Shown here: piece by piece, positions 1 to 5,671 of the stretch | How the letters are laid out: every line of letters begins with the position of its first letter | Position numbering within the stretch: the stretch's first letter is position 1 | Origin: Candidatus Hydrogenedentes bacterium CG07_land_8_20_14_0_80_42_17 | Lineage (GTDB): Bacteria; UBA8481 | Assembly (NCBI GenBank): GCA_002780065.1 | Contig: PEWQ01000194.1 | Span: forward strand, 1-5,671 | Reading direction: 5' to 3' | DNA: 5,671 nucleotides | Notes under the pieces: generated by a model | Database searches by the model: none | Told to the model about the DNA's origin: nothing | What the model saw: the letters and a program-made list of their open reading frames with translations, nothing else | Position numbers and translations under genes: made by a program

Positions 1-94
1 TTGGAAAGTGCAAATTGAAAATTTTATTTTTCCAATTTTCATTTTTCTTGGAAAGTGCAAATTGAAAATTTTATTTTTCCAATTTTCATTTTTC
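1..94. repeat. Two perfect 47-bp tandem repeats with internal inverted repeats
   Basis: Bases 1-47 and 48-94 are identical and directly abutting. Each unit is very AT-rich and contains an 8-bp inverted repeat (TGAAAATT at 16-23, AATTTTCA at 34-41, 10-base loop). A second pair is TTGGAAA at 1-7 and TTTCCAA at 29-35. Because of the tandem arrangement, TTTCCAA (29-35) also faces TTGGAAA of the next copy (48-54) across a 12-base loop, so alternative hairpins are possible. Copy 1 begins exactly at base 1, so the array may continue upstream of the window. There are no unique spacers, no reading frame and no GC-rich stem, so it is not a CRISPR array, a gene or a standard terminator. Function unknown; it resembles AT-rich intergenic repeat arrays. 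Confidence 0.93.
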
Positions 95-157
95 AATTAT
101 TTTACGCGTTCCACGGAAGATAGGCTGGTGACAAGAAAAAAAAGATAAAACAAAAAA

Positions 158-190
158 TCTCCGTGTTTCTGTTTCTCCGTAGTTCAAAAA
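158..190. repeat. C/T/G-rich intergenic repeat-like element
   Basis: TCTCCGT occurs at 158-164 and again at 174-180, and GTTTCT occurs twice in tandem at 165-176. The stretch ends in AGTTCAAAAA (181-190). Its composition differs sharply from the A-rich tract just before it (131-157). From general familiarity, short elements of the 'ctccgtgtctctgtgg-ttc' type recur between genes in many environmental bacterial genomes, and this looks like a diverged copy. That resemblance is from memory and was not searched. No coding capacity or clear hairpin is seen. Confidence 0.4.
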
Positions 191-223
191 TGCTACTTGC
201 ACGAGCCCTGCAGTTCACTCATC

Positions 224-241
224 ATTCCGTCAATTCCGTCA
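224..241. repeat. Two 9-bp direct repeats just upstream of the promoter
   Basis: ATTCCGTCA is present twice back to back (224-232 and 233-241), followed by a partial third ATT (242-244). It ends 7 bases before the predicted -35 box at 249. That is a position where a transcription factor could act, but the 9-bp period is shorter than one helical turn, and simple slippage duplication explains it equally well. Confidence 0.5.
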
Positions 242-248
242 ATTTGAT

Positions 249-277
249 TTGCCATTTTTTGCTTCATGTCACATAAT
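249..277 (+). promoter_or_regulatory. Predicted sigma70-type promoter for the gsp operon
   Basis: TTGCCA at 249-254 matches the -35 consensus TTGACA at 5 of 6 positions. CATAAT at 272-277 matches the -10 consensus TATAAT at 5 of 6. The spacer is exactly 17 bp. There is no extended -10 TG. Transcription would be expected to start about 6-8 bases past the -10 box, near 284-285, directly at or just before the ATGs at 285 and 294. This is the best promoter seen by eye in the upstream region and could serve all three genes. It is inferred from consensus only; if the host uses a divergent housekeeping sigma factor (as Bacteroidota do), the match could be chance. Confidence 0.5.
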
Positions 278-284
278 GCAAGTC

Positions 285-2960
285 ATGTCAAAAATGAAAT
301 TAATATTCTTTGCTTTGATATTGCTTTTGGCCGGTTCTCCGGCAATAAGTCAAACTCAAATAGATCCTCGCTCTCGCTTAAATGAAGCCAAAGTTCTGGC
401 TCAAGACGGAAAACTTGATTCTGCAATCGAACTTTTAGACAACATTCTCGTTTCGACGCCGTCGATAGGCGCCGAGGCATTATTTCAAAAAGGGCTCATA
501 CAATTTACGAGACAAAAAAAATACGACGACGCCATCTCTACATTTATAAAAATTGCAGAACTCTATCCTGAATCGCGTCTTTGCGACGACGCATATTATT
601 ATGCAGGATTTATCGCTCAATATCGGCTTAGCGATTCCGGCAGAGCGCTCCAACTTTACCGAACAGGATACGAAAACTATCCGCATGGTGATTACAGATT
701 CTCTATCGCCGACAAAATTAAAGAGCTGTCAGGCTCGACGCCCGGCGAATTGCTTTCAAATGATGCTCTACCTCGTCCCGAAGCCCAAAAACCTCCTGAG
801 GGAATTTCTGTAAGTTCCGACCGAACCGATGCCGGAGTCGTTCGAAGAACGCCGCCTGAGACCGATGTCTCCGACACTTCTCCGTTCAGACCTCGTGGCG
901 CAAAAAGTGTGACTGTTCAATTCGACAAAGCGCCCTTGCGTAATTTCATTCAATGGGTTGCGCAAGTGACAGGCCGCAACTTCATAATCGATGACGATGT
1001 TTCCGGAGATATAACAGTTTTTTCAGGAAAACAAGTTCCTTTGACAGAACTTTATCGAATATTTCTATCGATACTGGACGTAAAAGGATTTGCGGCAGTT
1101 GAAGCAGGAAACGTGACAAAGATAGTCACGCGCCAACAGGCGGCTCAATCTGAACTTCCGATTCTGATCGACGATGACGCGTATGTTCCTACTGACCGAG
1201 TCATCACGCGAATATTCAGACTGAAATCGATCTCGGCCGCAAGCCTTCAGACATTGATCAGACCGTTTCTGCTCGGAGCAGATCAAGTTGCTGTCAATCC
1301 CGAAACGAACAGTCTCATTGTGACCGGTCCTGCCGGCAATGTCGCAAAGATTGCCGAAATAATAAATATTGTCGATTCTGAAAGAACACCTATCGTTGTG
1401 CGTTCTTACCTAATTAATCATGCGAAGGCGGCTCAAATTGCGGATAAGCTGACAAACATTTTTGCATCGCTTAATCCTCAAGGCGCTACTGCTCCCGCAT
1501 TCAAAGTAATCGCAGACGAAAGAACGAACATGGTTTACGTGCTTGCCGACGAGGCTTATCAATCGACTGCGCGCGATTTAATTCGTGAGCTTGATACGGA
1601 CCGGACTGCTGACCGGATTGTAAAAGTCATCTTATTGAATTATGCAAAAGCAGACGAAGTGACAAAGCAATTGAGAACTCTTCTCGGACTGGAGTCAATC
1701 GACAACGCACCTGATTACGGTGGAATAACACAAACGATTTTAATTCCGGATATGCGTTTGAATTCGATTTCTCTCTCGACTTTCGCTCCTCGTATCGTGA
1801 CTCTCGTGGATTCTTACATCTCGAGAATAGATCAGCCGCCGTCTGATAATCTTCGTTCATTAAAAATAATAAGATTGCAGAATGCCGAAGCCTCAAAACT
1901 TGCCGAGATTCTCTCGAAGATGTTCGGCGCACAGCAAACCGCTTCCAGCGCGGCAGGCGCCGCAACTTCCGAAGCAACTGTCGCAGGACTGGCTGACAAA
2001 GTAATTATCACAGCGGACGATAGAACAAATTCTTTGCTTGTCACATCGACTTCTGTTGATTGGATAAAAATAGAAAAGGCAATTAAAGATCTCGACGTTC
2101 GTAAAACTCAGGTGCTTATCGACGCAGTCGTATTGGAAACGAATCTCGATGAGGCGCGAAATCTTGGAGCAAGCCTAATGACCGCCAATCAGCCTTCAGA
2201 AGGGCATACCATAGGTTTTGCGCGTTCCGATCCTGTCGGATTTCTTCCAACTTATCAGGCGCTTGCCGCTCAAGGCGGACTGACAATCGGCGCAGCACGA
2301 GGCTCAGTTGTTGCCGCTATGCTGAACGCACTTTTAACTTCGTCGAAAACTAATGTTCTTCAAATGCCGCAAATTCTCGCACTCGATAACGAGATTGCAA
2401 CTCTGTCGGTCGGTAATCTCACACCAATCGTGACATCGCGATCCATCAGCGGGGACAATGTTCAAATCGGAGGAACAAGCTCGATATTTCAAAATGTCGA
2501 ATACCGAAATATAGGACTGAATCTGAAGCTGAAACCGCATATTGGAAATCAAGGCGACATTCTCATTGAATCGAGAATAGAAATTCAAAATCGAAATACG
2601 CAGGCTGAAGCCGGTTTAAGCCTTCCAGTCTTCACAACTCGCGAAATAGAACAAAAGTTTCAGATACAGGATGGAGACTATATTGTGCTCGGAGGATTGC
2701 TGAGAACTCAAGATGATTTCGTTCAAACTGAAACTCCGTGGTTATCACGAATTCCGTTACTCGGAACACTCTTCAAATCATCACGCACTACAAATGAGAA
2801 GACAGTGCTCCTCATCTTTTTGCGGCCAAGAGTAGTCACGGATCCTGAACGTTCAAGAGCCATTACAGAAGAAGAGCACGATCAGTTCTCTGCAGAATCA
2901 AGCACGCGGCCCGGAGCGGCAGGGACGGAGTCCGACAAATGGATTCAGCCGGAGAATTAA
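285..2960 (+). CDS. gspD: Type II secretion system secretin GspD with N-terminal TPR region
   Basis: Outer-membrane channel of the T2SS, through which folded proteins leave the periplasm. From the ATG at 285 it is 891 aa. Order: signal peptide 1-22 (MSKMK n-region, hydrophobic core, probable cleavage AIS|Q); about three TPR-like helical repeats 29-148; Pro-rich linker 149-207; N0 domain 208-285 (TGRNFIIDDDVSGDITV); four N-type ring domains at about 306-366, 368-438, 443-516 and 523-604, each with the N-x-[LVI] strand signature (e.g. TNSLIV, TNSLLV); secretin core about 606-850 with VLQMPQILALDN, QDGDYIVLGG and IPLLGTLFKS; then a 40-aa tail. The fourth N domain carries an Ala/Ser/Thr-rich loop (about 550-568). 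Classical GspD (e.g. PulD, about 660 aa) has no TPR region and three such domains after N0, which explains the extra length. The frame is open from TTG 249 (903 aa) with ATGs at 276, 285 and 294. I chose 285 because it begins a good signal peptide and 249/276 lie inside the predicted promoter; 294 is nearly as likely. No Shine-Dalgarno is seen. The product is certain; the start is not. Confidence 0.95.
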   Translation: MSKMKLIFFALILLLAGSPAISQTQIDPRSRLNEAKVLAQDGKLDSAIELLDNILVSTPSIGAEALFQKGLIQFTRQKKYDDAISTFIKIAELYPESRLCDDAYYYAGFIAQYRLSDSGRALQLYRTGYENYPHGDYRFSIADKIKELSGSTPGELLSNDALPRPEAQKPPEGISVSSDRTDAGVVRRTPPETDVSDTSPFRPRGAKSVTVQFDKAPLRNFIQWVAQVTGRNFIIDDDVSGDITVFSGKQVPLTELYRIFLSILDVKGFAAVEAGNVTKIVTRQQAAQSELPILIDDDAYVPTDRVITRIFRLKSISAASLQTLIRPFLLGADQVAVNPETNSLIVTGPAGNVAKIAEIINIVDSERTPIVVRSYLINHAKAAQIADKLTNIFASLNPQGATAPAFKVIADERTNMVYVLADEAYQSTARDLIRELDTDRTADRIVKVILLNYAKADEVTKQLRTLLGLESIDNAPDYGGITQTILIPDMRLNSISLSTFAPRIVTLVDSYISRIDQPPSDNLRSLKIIRLQNAEASKLAEILSKMFGAQQTASSAAGAATSEATVAGLADKVIITADDRTNSLLVTSTSVDWIKIEKAIKDLDVRKTQVLIDAVVLETNLDEARNLGASLMTANQPSEGHTIGFARSDPVGFLPTYQALAAQGGLTIGAARGSVVAAMLNALLTSSKTNVLQMPQILALDNEIATLSVGNLTPIVTSRSISGDNVQIGGTSSIFQNVEYRNIGLNLKLKPHIGNQGDILIESRIEIQNRNTQAEAGLSLPVFTTREIEQKFQIQDGDYIVLGGLLRTQDDFVQTETPWLSRIPLLGTLFKSSRTTNEKTVLLIFLRPRVVTDPERSRAITEEEHDQFSAESSTRPGAAGTESDKWIQPEN

Positions 2961-2969
2961 AGTCAACTC

Positions 2970-4439
2970 ATGATTCATAAAGAAGTATTTCAAAAAGAGA
3001 TACTAACATTTTTTCCCAGAGAGTTTCTTATCACCGCCGCAATTGCGCCTCTGCGTGAAGAGAACGGTTCAATCGTTATATTCGGAGCCAAAGAAAGTGA
3101 AGGCTCCGCAGTTGAAGCCGGGTTGGCATTGAAAAAGTCTATCAAATTTATTGAAGCCGACGAATTGGAAGTTAGGCGTTTTGTAAGCGAGCATTACGGA
3201 TTGGAAACATCGAGGCAAGAAGCCATTGACGAATTCGGTGATAGAATAGACAACATCAAATCTCTCGAAGAGCAGGCAAATGACGCTCCTCTTGTCCGAC
3301 TTGTCAGCGATATTCTTATGAACGCGTGCAGAAAAAGAGCCTCCGATATTCACATCGAGCCTCATGAAGATGCGACAGTGATACGCTTTCGAATTGACGG
3401 AGTTCTTGCAGAGACAGACAGATTGCCTCTAGCGCTCAATACAGCCATAGTTTCGAGAATAAAGATTTTGTCGCGGCTCGATATTGCTCAGACGCGGCTT
3501 CCGCAAGACGGCAGAGTAGCTCTGAATGTTGGAGGACGAGAACTTGATTTAAGAGTCTCAACTATTCCCACTCCGCACGGAGAGAGAGTTGTATTAAGAC
3601 TCTTGGATCGGAGTTCAGTTAGATTTGGAATGGAAGAGCTCGGACTTGATGGAGCACTTTTATCAAAATGGAAAGATACTATTTTTCAGCCTCATGGAAT
3701 TGTGCTCGTCACAGGACCGACCGGTTCAGGTAAGACGACCACTCTATATGCCGCAATCGAAACTTTGAGATCTGGGAAAGTTAATATTCTTACAGTTGAG
3801 GATCCTGTCGAATATCAGCTCGATGGAATAGGTCAAATTCAGGTCAATCCAAAAATTAATCTTACGTTTGCCGCCGGGTTGAGATCGATACTGAGGCAGG
3901 ACCCGGACATAATAATGGTCGGAGAAATCAGAGACGACGAAACTGCGTTGATAGCGGTTCAATCAGCTCTGACAGGCCATCTAGTTCTTTCTACACTTCA
4001 CACCAACGATTCGGCTTCCGCCTCGCCACGACTTCTGGATATGAATATCGAGCCATATCTTCTTGCTTCTACTTTGCGCGGAGTGCTTGCGCAGAGGCTT
4101 GTCAGAAGGCTCTGTCAAAATTGCATGCTTGAGTCCAAGCCGAATGAGATAGAGATTGCTTCGCTTGGTTTAATGAACGGAGAAAAGATTTTCAGAGCAA
4201 AAGGCTGTGATAAGTGCGGCGGTTCAGGATACCACGGTCGAATCGGCATATTTGAATTTATGGCAACGAGCGACAAGATACGCGAATTAATATTAAACCG
4301 CAGACCGTCTTCTGAAATATTCGAATCTGCTTATCAAAGCGGAATGAAATCCATGAAAGATGACGGCGTTGGAAAAATTAGAGCCGGATTAACTTCACCT
4401 GAAGAAGTAATTCGAGTGACAGAGGCGCCGGTTGTTTAA
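2970..4439 (+). CDS. gspE: Type II secretion system assembly ATPase GspE
   Basis: Cytoplasmic hexameric ATPase of the GspE/PilB family that powers pseudopilus assembly, normally docked to the membrane through GspL. It is 489 aa, close to the usual GspE length (about 490-505). Residues 1-80 look like the GspE N-terminal (N1E) domain that contacts GspL. The N2E domain follows, with RASDIHIEP (123-131) and RLPQDGR (176-182). The motor domain has Walker A GPTGSGKTT (249-257, Lys255), the Asp box ILTVEDPVEYQ (273-283), Walker B DPDIIMVGEIRD (311-322, Glu319) and the His box TGHLVLSTLHTND (335-347). The zinc-binding tetracysteine is intact: Cys382, Cys385, Cys413, Cys416. No key residue is missing, so it should be active. 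Length and the short N-terminus favour GspE over PilB, and the gspD/gspF neighbours agree. It starts 9 bases after the gspD stop. The only SD-like sequence, GGAG (2951-2954), lies within the end of gspD and is 15 bases from the ATG, so translational coupling to gspD is likely. Confidence 0.96.
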   Translation: MIHKEVFQKEILTFFPREFLITAAIAPLREENGSIVIFGAKESEGSAVEAGLALKKSIKFIEADELEVRRFVSEHYGLETSRQEAIDEFGDRIDNIKSLEEQANDAPLVRLVSDILMNACRKRASDIHIEPHEDATVIRFRIDGVLAETDRLPLALNTAIVSRIKILSRLDIAQTRLPQDGRVALNVGGRELDLRVSTIPTPHGERVVLRLLDRSSVRFGMEELGLDGALLSKWKDTIFQPHGIVLVTGPTGSGKTTTLYAAIETLRSGKVNILTVEDPVEYQLDGIGQIQVNPKINLTFAAGLRSILRQDPDIIMVGEIRDDETALIAVQSALTGHLVLSTLHTNDSASASPRLLDMNIEPYLLASTLRGVLAQRLVRRLCQNCMLESKPNEIEIASLGLMNGEKIFRAKGCDKCGGSGYHGRIGIFEFMATSDKIRELILNRRPSSEIFESAYQSGMKSMKDDGVGKIRAGLTSPEEVIRVTEAPVV

Positions 4440-4450
4440 TTGCGCTTTTC

Positions 4451-4454
4451 AGGA
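4451..4454 (+). promoter_or_regulatory. Ribosome binding site of gspF
   Basis: AGGA sits 8 bases before the ATG at 4463, an ordinary Shine-Dalgarno spacing. It is the only well-placed SD-like site in the window and supports ATG 4463 as the gspF start. It also shows that the host can use SD initiation, which makes the lack of one before gspD more notable. Confidence 0.6.
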
Positions 4455-4462
4455 ATAACTAT

Positions 4463-5668
4463 ATGCCGCTCTTTGCATATAAAGCCGTATCAGCAAATGG
4501 AAAGACAGTTACGGGTGAAATACCTGCCGAAAATGGAAGGCATGCCAGATCTATTCTTCGCGAATCCGGTGTCATTCCAATTGCCGTCAATGAAATCGCG
4601 ATCGCTAAAAATAATAACCTTCCTTCTCTGACAGCTTTGTCGGCTATGGTGCGGCAGCTTGGGACATTATTGAATGCAGGTTTTCCTGCGGACAGAGCTC
4701 TTTCCTCACTTGCACTTGCAGCATCCGATCCTGCAATGAAAACGCTCTACAATTCGTTGCACGAAGGAATAGCCAGAGGCATGAAGCTTTCAGAAGCTGT
4801 AGCCCGATGCTTCACCTCAAGCGGAAAGATAACTTTTTGGGACGAATTTACTGCAATGGTTCAGGCTGGCGAAGCCGGCGGCGAACTTGCGGATGTGCTG
4901 ATATCATATTCTGATCTGCTCGAAAAAAGAGTTGCTTTCAGGCGAAGGCTTCAAGGCGCACTCTTCTATCCGCTCGTCGTTCTGTCGCTCGCGTTTGCAG
5001 TAGTCATATTTCTATTCAGTTACGTAGTTCCGACAATAACTCTTCTCTTTGAAAACTCTCAAATGCCTTTGCCTCTGCCGACAAAGATACTCTTTCTTAT
5101 TGCAGATTTTTCTAAAAAAGGTTTATTTCCAATAATCGGTTTTATTATTGCAGGTTTCTTTTTTTACAAAGGTTATTTGCGATCTAATCAAGGCCGCCGC
5201 CAAATCGAAAAAATTATTTACGCGCTTCCTGGAATAGGAAGTTTACTGGAAAAAGCAGCGTTTGCCCGTTGGGCGCGCACATTCGGTTCTCTGCTCGATA
5301 AAGGCGTGGAAATACGTTTTGCGATGAAGATTGCCGCAAGAACTGCGCGGTCAATTAGAATAGAAGATGCAACGCAGAAGGCTGAGCCTAGAGTTGCAAG
5401 CGGCATTACGCTTGCGAGAGCTCTTACCGAAACAAAAGTTTTTCCCGGTATTGCGTTAGAAGCGGTAATGCTGGGTGAAAGTTCCGGAACGCTTCCAAAA
5501 TTACTGAAGGAGATAGCAGGCGCATGGGAATCGGAAGTTGAAAACGGAGCGGCGCGGTTCGCCGATATTCTTGAACCAATGGTCTTAATATTGATGGGAG
5601 GAATAGTCGGTTCGATAGTACTCGCAATTCTCCTGCCTATATTCGAATTCAATTCAGCGATTAAATAA
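4463..5668 (+). CDS. gspF: Type II secretion system inner-membrane platform protein GspF
   Basis: Polytopic inner-membrane protein of the GspF/PilC family. It forms the centre of the assembly platform and is thought to pass motion from GspE to the growing pseudopilus. It is 401 aa, the usual length. The N-terminus (MPLFAYKAVSANGKTVTGEI) is the typical GspF cytoplasmic start. Two homologous GspF domains follow: about 57-182, with RQLGTLLNAG (64-73) and AGEAGGELADVL (135-146); and about 265-390, with GSLLDKGVEI (275-284) and GESSGTLPKLL (338-348). Three hydrophobic membrane segments are visible at about 168-190, 221-237 and 373-394, the standard topology. The C-terminal EPMVLILMGGIVGSIV is characteristic of the family. 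The gene starts 23 bases after gspE and has its own SD-like site. It ends at TAA 5666-5668, three bases before the window edge, with no terminator visible, so the operon probably continues (gspG expected). Nothing is broken or missing. Confidence 0.95.
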   Translation: MPLFAYKAVSANGKTVTGEIPAENGRHARSILRESGVIPIAVNEIAIAKNNNLPSLTALSAMVRQLGTLLNAGFPADRALSSLALAASDPAMKTLYNSLHEGIARGMKLSEAVARCFTSSGKITFWDEFTAMVQAGEAGGELADVLISYSDLLEKRVAFRRRLQGALFYPLVVLSLAFAVVIFLFSYVVPTITLLFENSQMPLPLPTKILFLIADFSKKGLFPIIGFIIAGFFFYKGYLRSNQGRRQIEKIIYALPGIGSLLEKAAFARWARTFGSLLDKGVEIRFAMKIAARTARSIRIEDATQKAEPRVASGITLARALTETKVFPGIALEAVMLGESSGTLPKLLKEIAGAWESEVENGAARFADILEPMVLILMGGIVGSIVLAILLPIFEFNSAIK

Positions 5669-5671
5669 GAG

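Follow-up and report, generated by a model that had tools for sequence, protein, structure and literature searches.

The stretch of DNA analysed here (the window; 5,671 nucleotides) encodes a type II secretion system (T2SS) secretin, GspD, with an additional region between the signal peptide and the N0 domain, which raises the question of what this region is and whether it stands in for a partner, such as GspC, that other systems carry as a separate protein. The window comprises bases 1 to 5671 of the 5,806-base contig C24 of a draft genome (G000; 207 contigs, 86.9% complete) and contains three genes, all on the forward strand: gspD (285..2960, 891 aa), gspE, coding for the T2SS ATPase (2970..4439), and gspF, coding for the inner-membrane platform protein (4463..5668). 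GspD scored 435.5 bits against TIGR02517 (cut-off, 351.35) and contained N0 (PF21305), PF03958, and PF00263, which identifies it as a T2SS secretin. GspE matched PF00437 (T2SSE) above the cut-off and TIGR02533 slightly below it (618.1 bits; cut-off, 630.25), and GspF matched PF00482 above the cut-off and TIGR02120 below it (303.5 bits; cut-off, 424). Two perfect copies of an AT-rich 47-bp unit occupy positions 1 to 94 of the window, i.e., the very start of the contig; the first 40 bases of this unit recur as an inverted copy near the other end of C24 (L004:5760-5799) and also at the end of C97 (L199:14995-15034), the contig carrying gspG to gspM. An interspersed repeat may have interrupted the assembly here, and C97 perhaps immediately precedes C24. 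The same genome has two more secretin loci (L042 and L043, on contigs C88 and C204), one of which, judged by eye, resembles a Tad-type pilus locus, and the other adjoins type IV pilin-like and pilB/pilT-like genes.

The window GspD resembles GspD/PulD (TIGR02517) in having a signal peptide, N0, further N-domains, a secretin domain, and gspE-gspF downstream, but differs in having about 185 extra residues, made up of tetratricopeptide repeats (TPRs) and a linker, between the signal peptide and N0. The Sec signal peptide (285..353; residues 1-23, MSKMKLIFFALILLLAGSPAISQ), read from the sequence with a putative cleavage site, has no lipobox Cys. It is followed by a TPR domain composed of three TPRs and a capping helix (366..731; residues 28-149), hereafter referred to as the arm, a flexible and weakly conserved linker (732..908; residues 150-208), and N0 (918..1124; residues 212-280). 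Further downstream, four stretches matched Secretin_N (PF03958), the best of them at 1863..2111 (residues 527-609), and the secretin domain (PF00263) lies at 2331..2837. The match of N0 to PF21305 (2.2e-22) agrees with the initial annotation, which had proposed a normal N0 after the linker; the single-sequence AlphaFold2 model gave no confident fold for N0, and the assignment rests on Pfam. That annotation had also described the linker as some 60 Pro-rich residues. Its length and flexibility were borne out, with residues 151-220 disordered in a longer AlphaFold2 model and a pLDDT below 50 for the linker, but its Pro content is modest (9 of 58 residues) and its counterpart in a relative, G001, is charged and not Pro-rich, so that "flexible linker" is the better label.

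Several results support the TPR assignment, which the initial annotation had made as a BamD/YbgF-type region after the signal peptide. When the region 369-905 was scanned alone, it matched Pfam TPR_6 above the cut-off (5.5e-8, 33.4 bits; cut-off, 26.3) and TPR_16 at the cut-off (1e-7, 32.7 bits), and the NCBIfam models for YbgF (1.3e-8) and BamD (3.8e-6) under theirs; in the scan of full-length GspD, no TPR family exceeded its cut-off (TPR_6, 26.1 versus 26.3 bits). The best AlphaFold2 model of residues 24-160, built from a single sequence, had a pLDDT of 89.5 and a pTM of 0.83 (pLDDT of 81.0 to 54.4 for the other four of the five) and contained three helix pairs (model residues 5-17/21-34, 36-52/57-70, and 77-91/95-108) and a cap (115-126). 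Taken together, the profile match and the predicted helix-turn-helix repeat fold identify the region as a TPR domain with bounds at about residues 28-149. The solved folds nearest to the model were the TPR domain of YbgF (2xev, Z 16.5) and BamD (5waq, Z 15.3), with PilF ranked lower; since TPR folds generally score well, these matches name the fold and not the function. The periplasmic TPR proteins YbgF/CpoB and BamD are thus the nearest relatives of the arm in both fold and sequence, but they stand alone and are not fused to a secretin.

The presence of PilF among the fold matches bears on the idea of a fused pilotin or assembly chaperone, in which the TPRs would act in cis in the manner of PilF, PilW, or TadD and no separate pilotin would be needed. 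TPR lipoproteins do serve the assembly of secretins and outer-membrane complexes, e.g., TadD/RcpA (PMC10499894), and the type IV pilus and Tad secretins have TPR pilotins. An AspS-type pilotin was not found in either genome of the phylum, which says little because the AspS family is narrow. PilF, PilW, and TadD, however, are separate lipoproteins, TadD binds the C-terminus of its secretin, and the studied T2SS and Tad pilotins act as lipoproteins at the C-terminal S-domain, whereas the arm is at the opposite, N-terminal end of a protein whose signal peptide lacks a lipobox Cys. With YbgF and BamD, rather than PilF, as the closest folds, we consider a fused pilotin quite unlikely. The same holds for a wider version, according to which the built-in TPRs would run outer-membrane assembly or envelope positioning, so that neither a pilotin (GspS) nor a scaffold (GspB) would have to be supplied as a separate protein; such a secretin would have originated one or more times in phyla that are little studied.

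We then compared the arm with that of G001, the only other sampled genome of the phylum, which belongs to the same order but a different family and has the same TPR-linker-N0 arrangement. The two GspD proteins were 51% identical overall, with 43.7% identity in the TPR domain, 24.1% in the linker, and 61.0% in both N0 and the secretin domain. Inside the arm, the identity was 31 to 33% for TPR1 and TPR2, 62.5% for TPR3, and 57.9% for the cap. Since the TPR domain is better conserved than the linker, and TPR3 and the cap, at about 60%, are on a par with N0, the arm has apparently been kept by selection, which appears from these two sequences to be strongest at its C-terminal end. TPR3 and the cap (582..731; residues 100-149), the most conserved part of the arm and as well conserved as N0, are likely to form a binding surface and are our candidate ligand site.

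The distribution of the arrangement was determined in three ways. Of 192 genomes sampled broadly, 130 contained N0 (PF21305), and reading the N-termini of 80 of the best N0 secretins revealed TPRs only in two proteins of G030 and one of G177. Among 45 further N0 secretins in which 60 or more residues precede N0, a Pfam scan found TPRs in none, AMIN in seven, and SPOR in two; the same scan found no AMIN in the N-terminus of the window GspD. Elsewhere, N0 secretins had nothing, a disordered linker, AMIN, or SPOR in this position. When a profile spanning the TPRs and N0 was searched against 386 genomes, the only ones with a match that covered both parts were G000, G001, G030, G177, and G192, the last three being the whole of one small second phylum as sampled. 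In 195 genomes from the phylum of G029 and 24 from that of G064, sets that included no known-matching genome and in which a divergent TPR would escape, no TPR-N0 was found at an E value of ≤1e-32. Some fusions can be overlooked, because one short-TPR form (P0004) matched the profile only from the linker to N0. A scan of genome contigs returned nothing but stand-alone TPR proteins, and full-text searches of the open-licence literature found no earlier description of a TPR-fused GspD. The N-terminus reading, the profile search, and the Pfam scan rule out TPR-N0 as a routine secretin arrangement in the sampled genomes. The extra domain ahead of N0 is real, conserved, and rare.

The secretins of G030, G177, and G192 resemble that of the window in the order of TPR, long linker, N0, and secretin domain, but their TPR sequence is no closer to that of the window than generic TPRs are. 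With respect to a possible common origin, TPR profiles did not join the arms of the two phyla, and the residues invariant in both, compared by eye with the known TPR consensus, resemble generic TPR packing positions. The second phylum has two TPR-N0 forms, one with strong TPR matches (989 to 1,004 aa where complete; L110, L202, L163, and L164) and one with a short TPR-like stretch whose Pfam match is weak or absent; it is the latter that adjoins gspC and gspE. A quick tree grouped the window pair with this gspC-linked type (SH-aLRT, 86), with a long-branch warning.

The occurrence of AMIN and SPOR in the slot before N0 favours the view that the arm is a tether, i.e., that its TPRs anchor the channel to peptidoglycan or to the platform by binding a protein of the inner membrane or one linked to the cell wall, as a counterpart of AMIN or GspB. 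In Myxococcus xanthus PilQ, peptidoglycan-binding AMIN domains lie ahead of N0 (PMC9239104), which makes this slot a known site of anchoring modules, and GspB anchors a secretin via N0 and peptidoglycan. The window GspD is like such PilQ proteins in having an additional domain there, but unlike them in its nature, AMIN being a peptidoglycan-binding beta fold and the arm a predicted TPR fold. TPRs have no known peptidoglycan-binding activity of their own, so an intermediary partner would be required, and we rate a tether as unlikely. Long SPOR-like extensions precede N0 at two further loci (L133 in G169 and L135 in G022), and two of the scanned proteins match SPOR; such extensions are another candidate cell-wall anchoring module for the slot.

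The initial annotation noted that no gspC is visible beside gspD and suggested that the arm replaces separate partners. The former holds within the window, but only 284 bp of the contig precede gspD. On contig C125 of the same genome there is a gspC (7026-7844; E 2.5e-48), its product scoring 30.4 bits against Pfam T2SSC (cut-off, 27) and being 45% identical over 183 residues to GspC of G001, which refutes the absence of gspC. It lies apart from gspDEF and is followed by tRNA-Tyr (L045); G001 has a gspCDEF run. The gspC gene of G001 overlaps the start of gspD, and in G001, G030, G177, and G192, the TPR-gspD is immediately preceded by a gspC or gspC-like gene. The gspC-like products of the last three have a transmembrane segment, an HR-like region, and a PDZ domain, and score below the cut-offs of the GspC models. 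Contig C97 of G000 carries gspG, gspJ, and gspK above the Pfam cut-offs, gspH and gspI as recognised by their N-methyl motif and position, and, after gspK, genes at the expected position that match the GspL (5.4e-4) and GspM (2.4e-5) models, both below the cut-off. The window, C125, and C97 together provide gspC, gspE, gspF, and the pseudopilins, as expected of a T2SS member. A replacement of GspC by the arm, for which the lack of gspC on the window contig could be taken to speak, is thereby refuted at the genome level; gspC also adjoins the TPR-gspD in four relatives, and the GspC-binding N0 is intact (61% identity to G001), which leaves this reading extremely improbable. The initial annotation would have yielded to a fusion that is routine in T2SS secretins also having gspC and a pilotin; the fusion does occur together with gspC, but this is only half of that picture, because TPR-N0 is not routine in the sampled genomes.

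What role, then, would the arm play beside GspC? In one solved T2SS, the HR domain of GspC binds N0 at the base of the 15-fold secretin ring (PMC6882859), and a fusion before N0 is therefore expected at the periplasmic mouth of the channel, facing the inner membrane as originally proposed, unless the tether folds back; being disordered and some 60 residues long, it could allow the arm to do so along the channel exterior. The reading that we favour, with a probability of roughly 0.6, is that the arm is an extra periplasmic protein-docking adaptor that works alongside GspC and does not replace it. The protein would be an ordinary T2SS GspD extended before N0 by a small periplasmic TPR adaptor on a disordered tether. 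In the assembled channel, which has 15 copies in known T2SSs, the TPRs would be suspended beneath the N0 ring, near the contact with GspC-HR, and their TPR3/cap surface would serve to bind a protein of the periplasm. The most probable partner is a platform subunit or a factor involved in assembly or positioning, and a substrate is less probable; the arm and GspC would act side by side. A protein-docking role of this kind appears reasonable. If the partner were instead an exoprotein, the arm would recruit substrates at the channel mouth, which suits its location at the periplasmic entrance and the frequent use of TPR grooves for protein-protein contacts. We regard this as very unlikely, since GspC, which has been implicated in recruitment in the studied systems, is present, and the conserved TPR3/cap surface speaks for one constant partner and not for a range of substrates.

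Most work on T2SS has concerned a few Proteobacteria, which depend on separate pilotins and scaffolds. The conserved, putative adaptor built into the window GspD, at the position that AMIN or SPOR occupies in other secretins, suggests a general design, in which exchangeable N-terminal modules set the ties made at the channel mouth.
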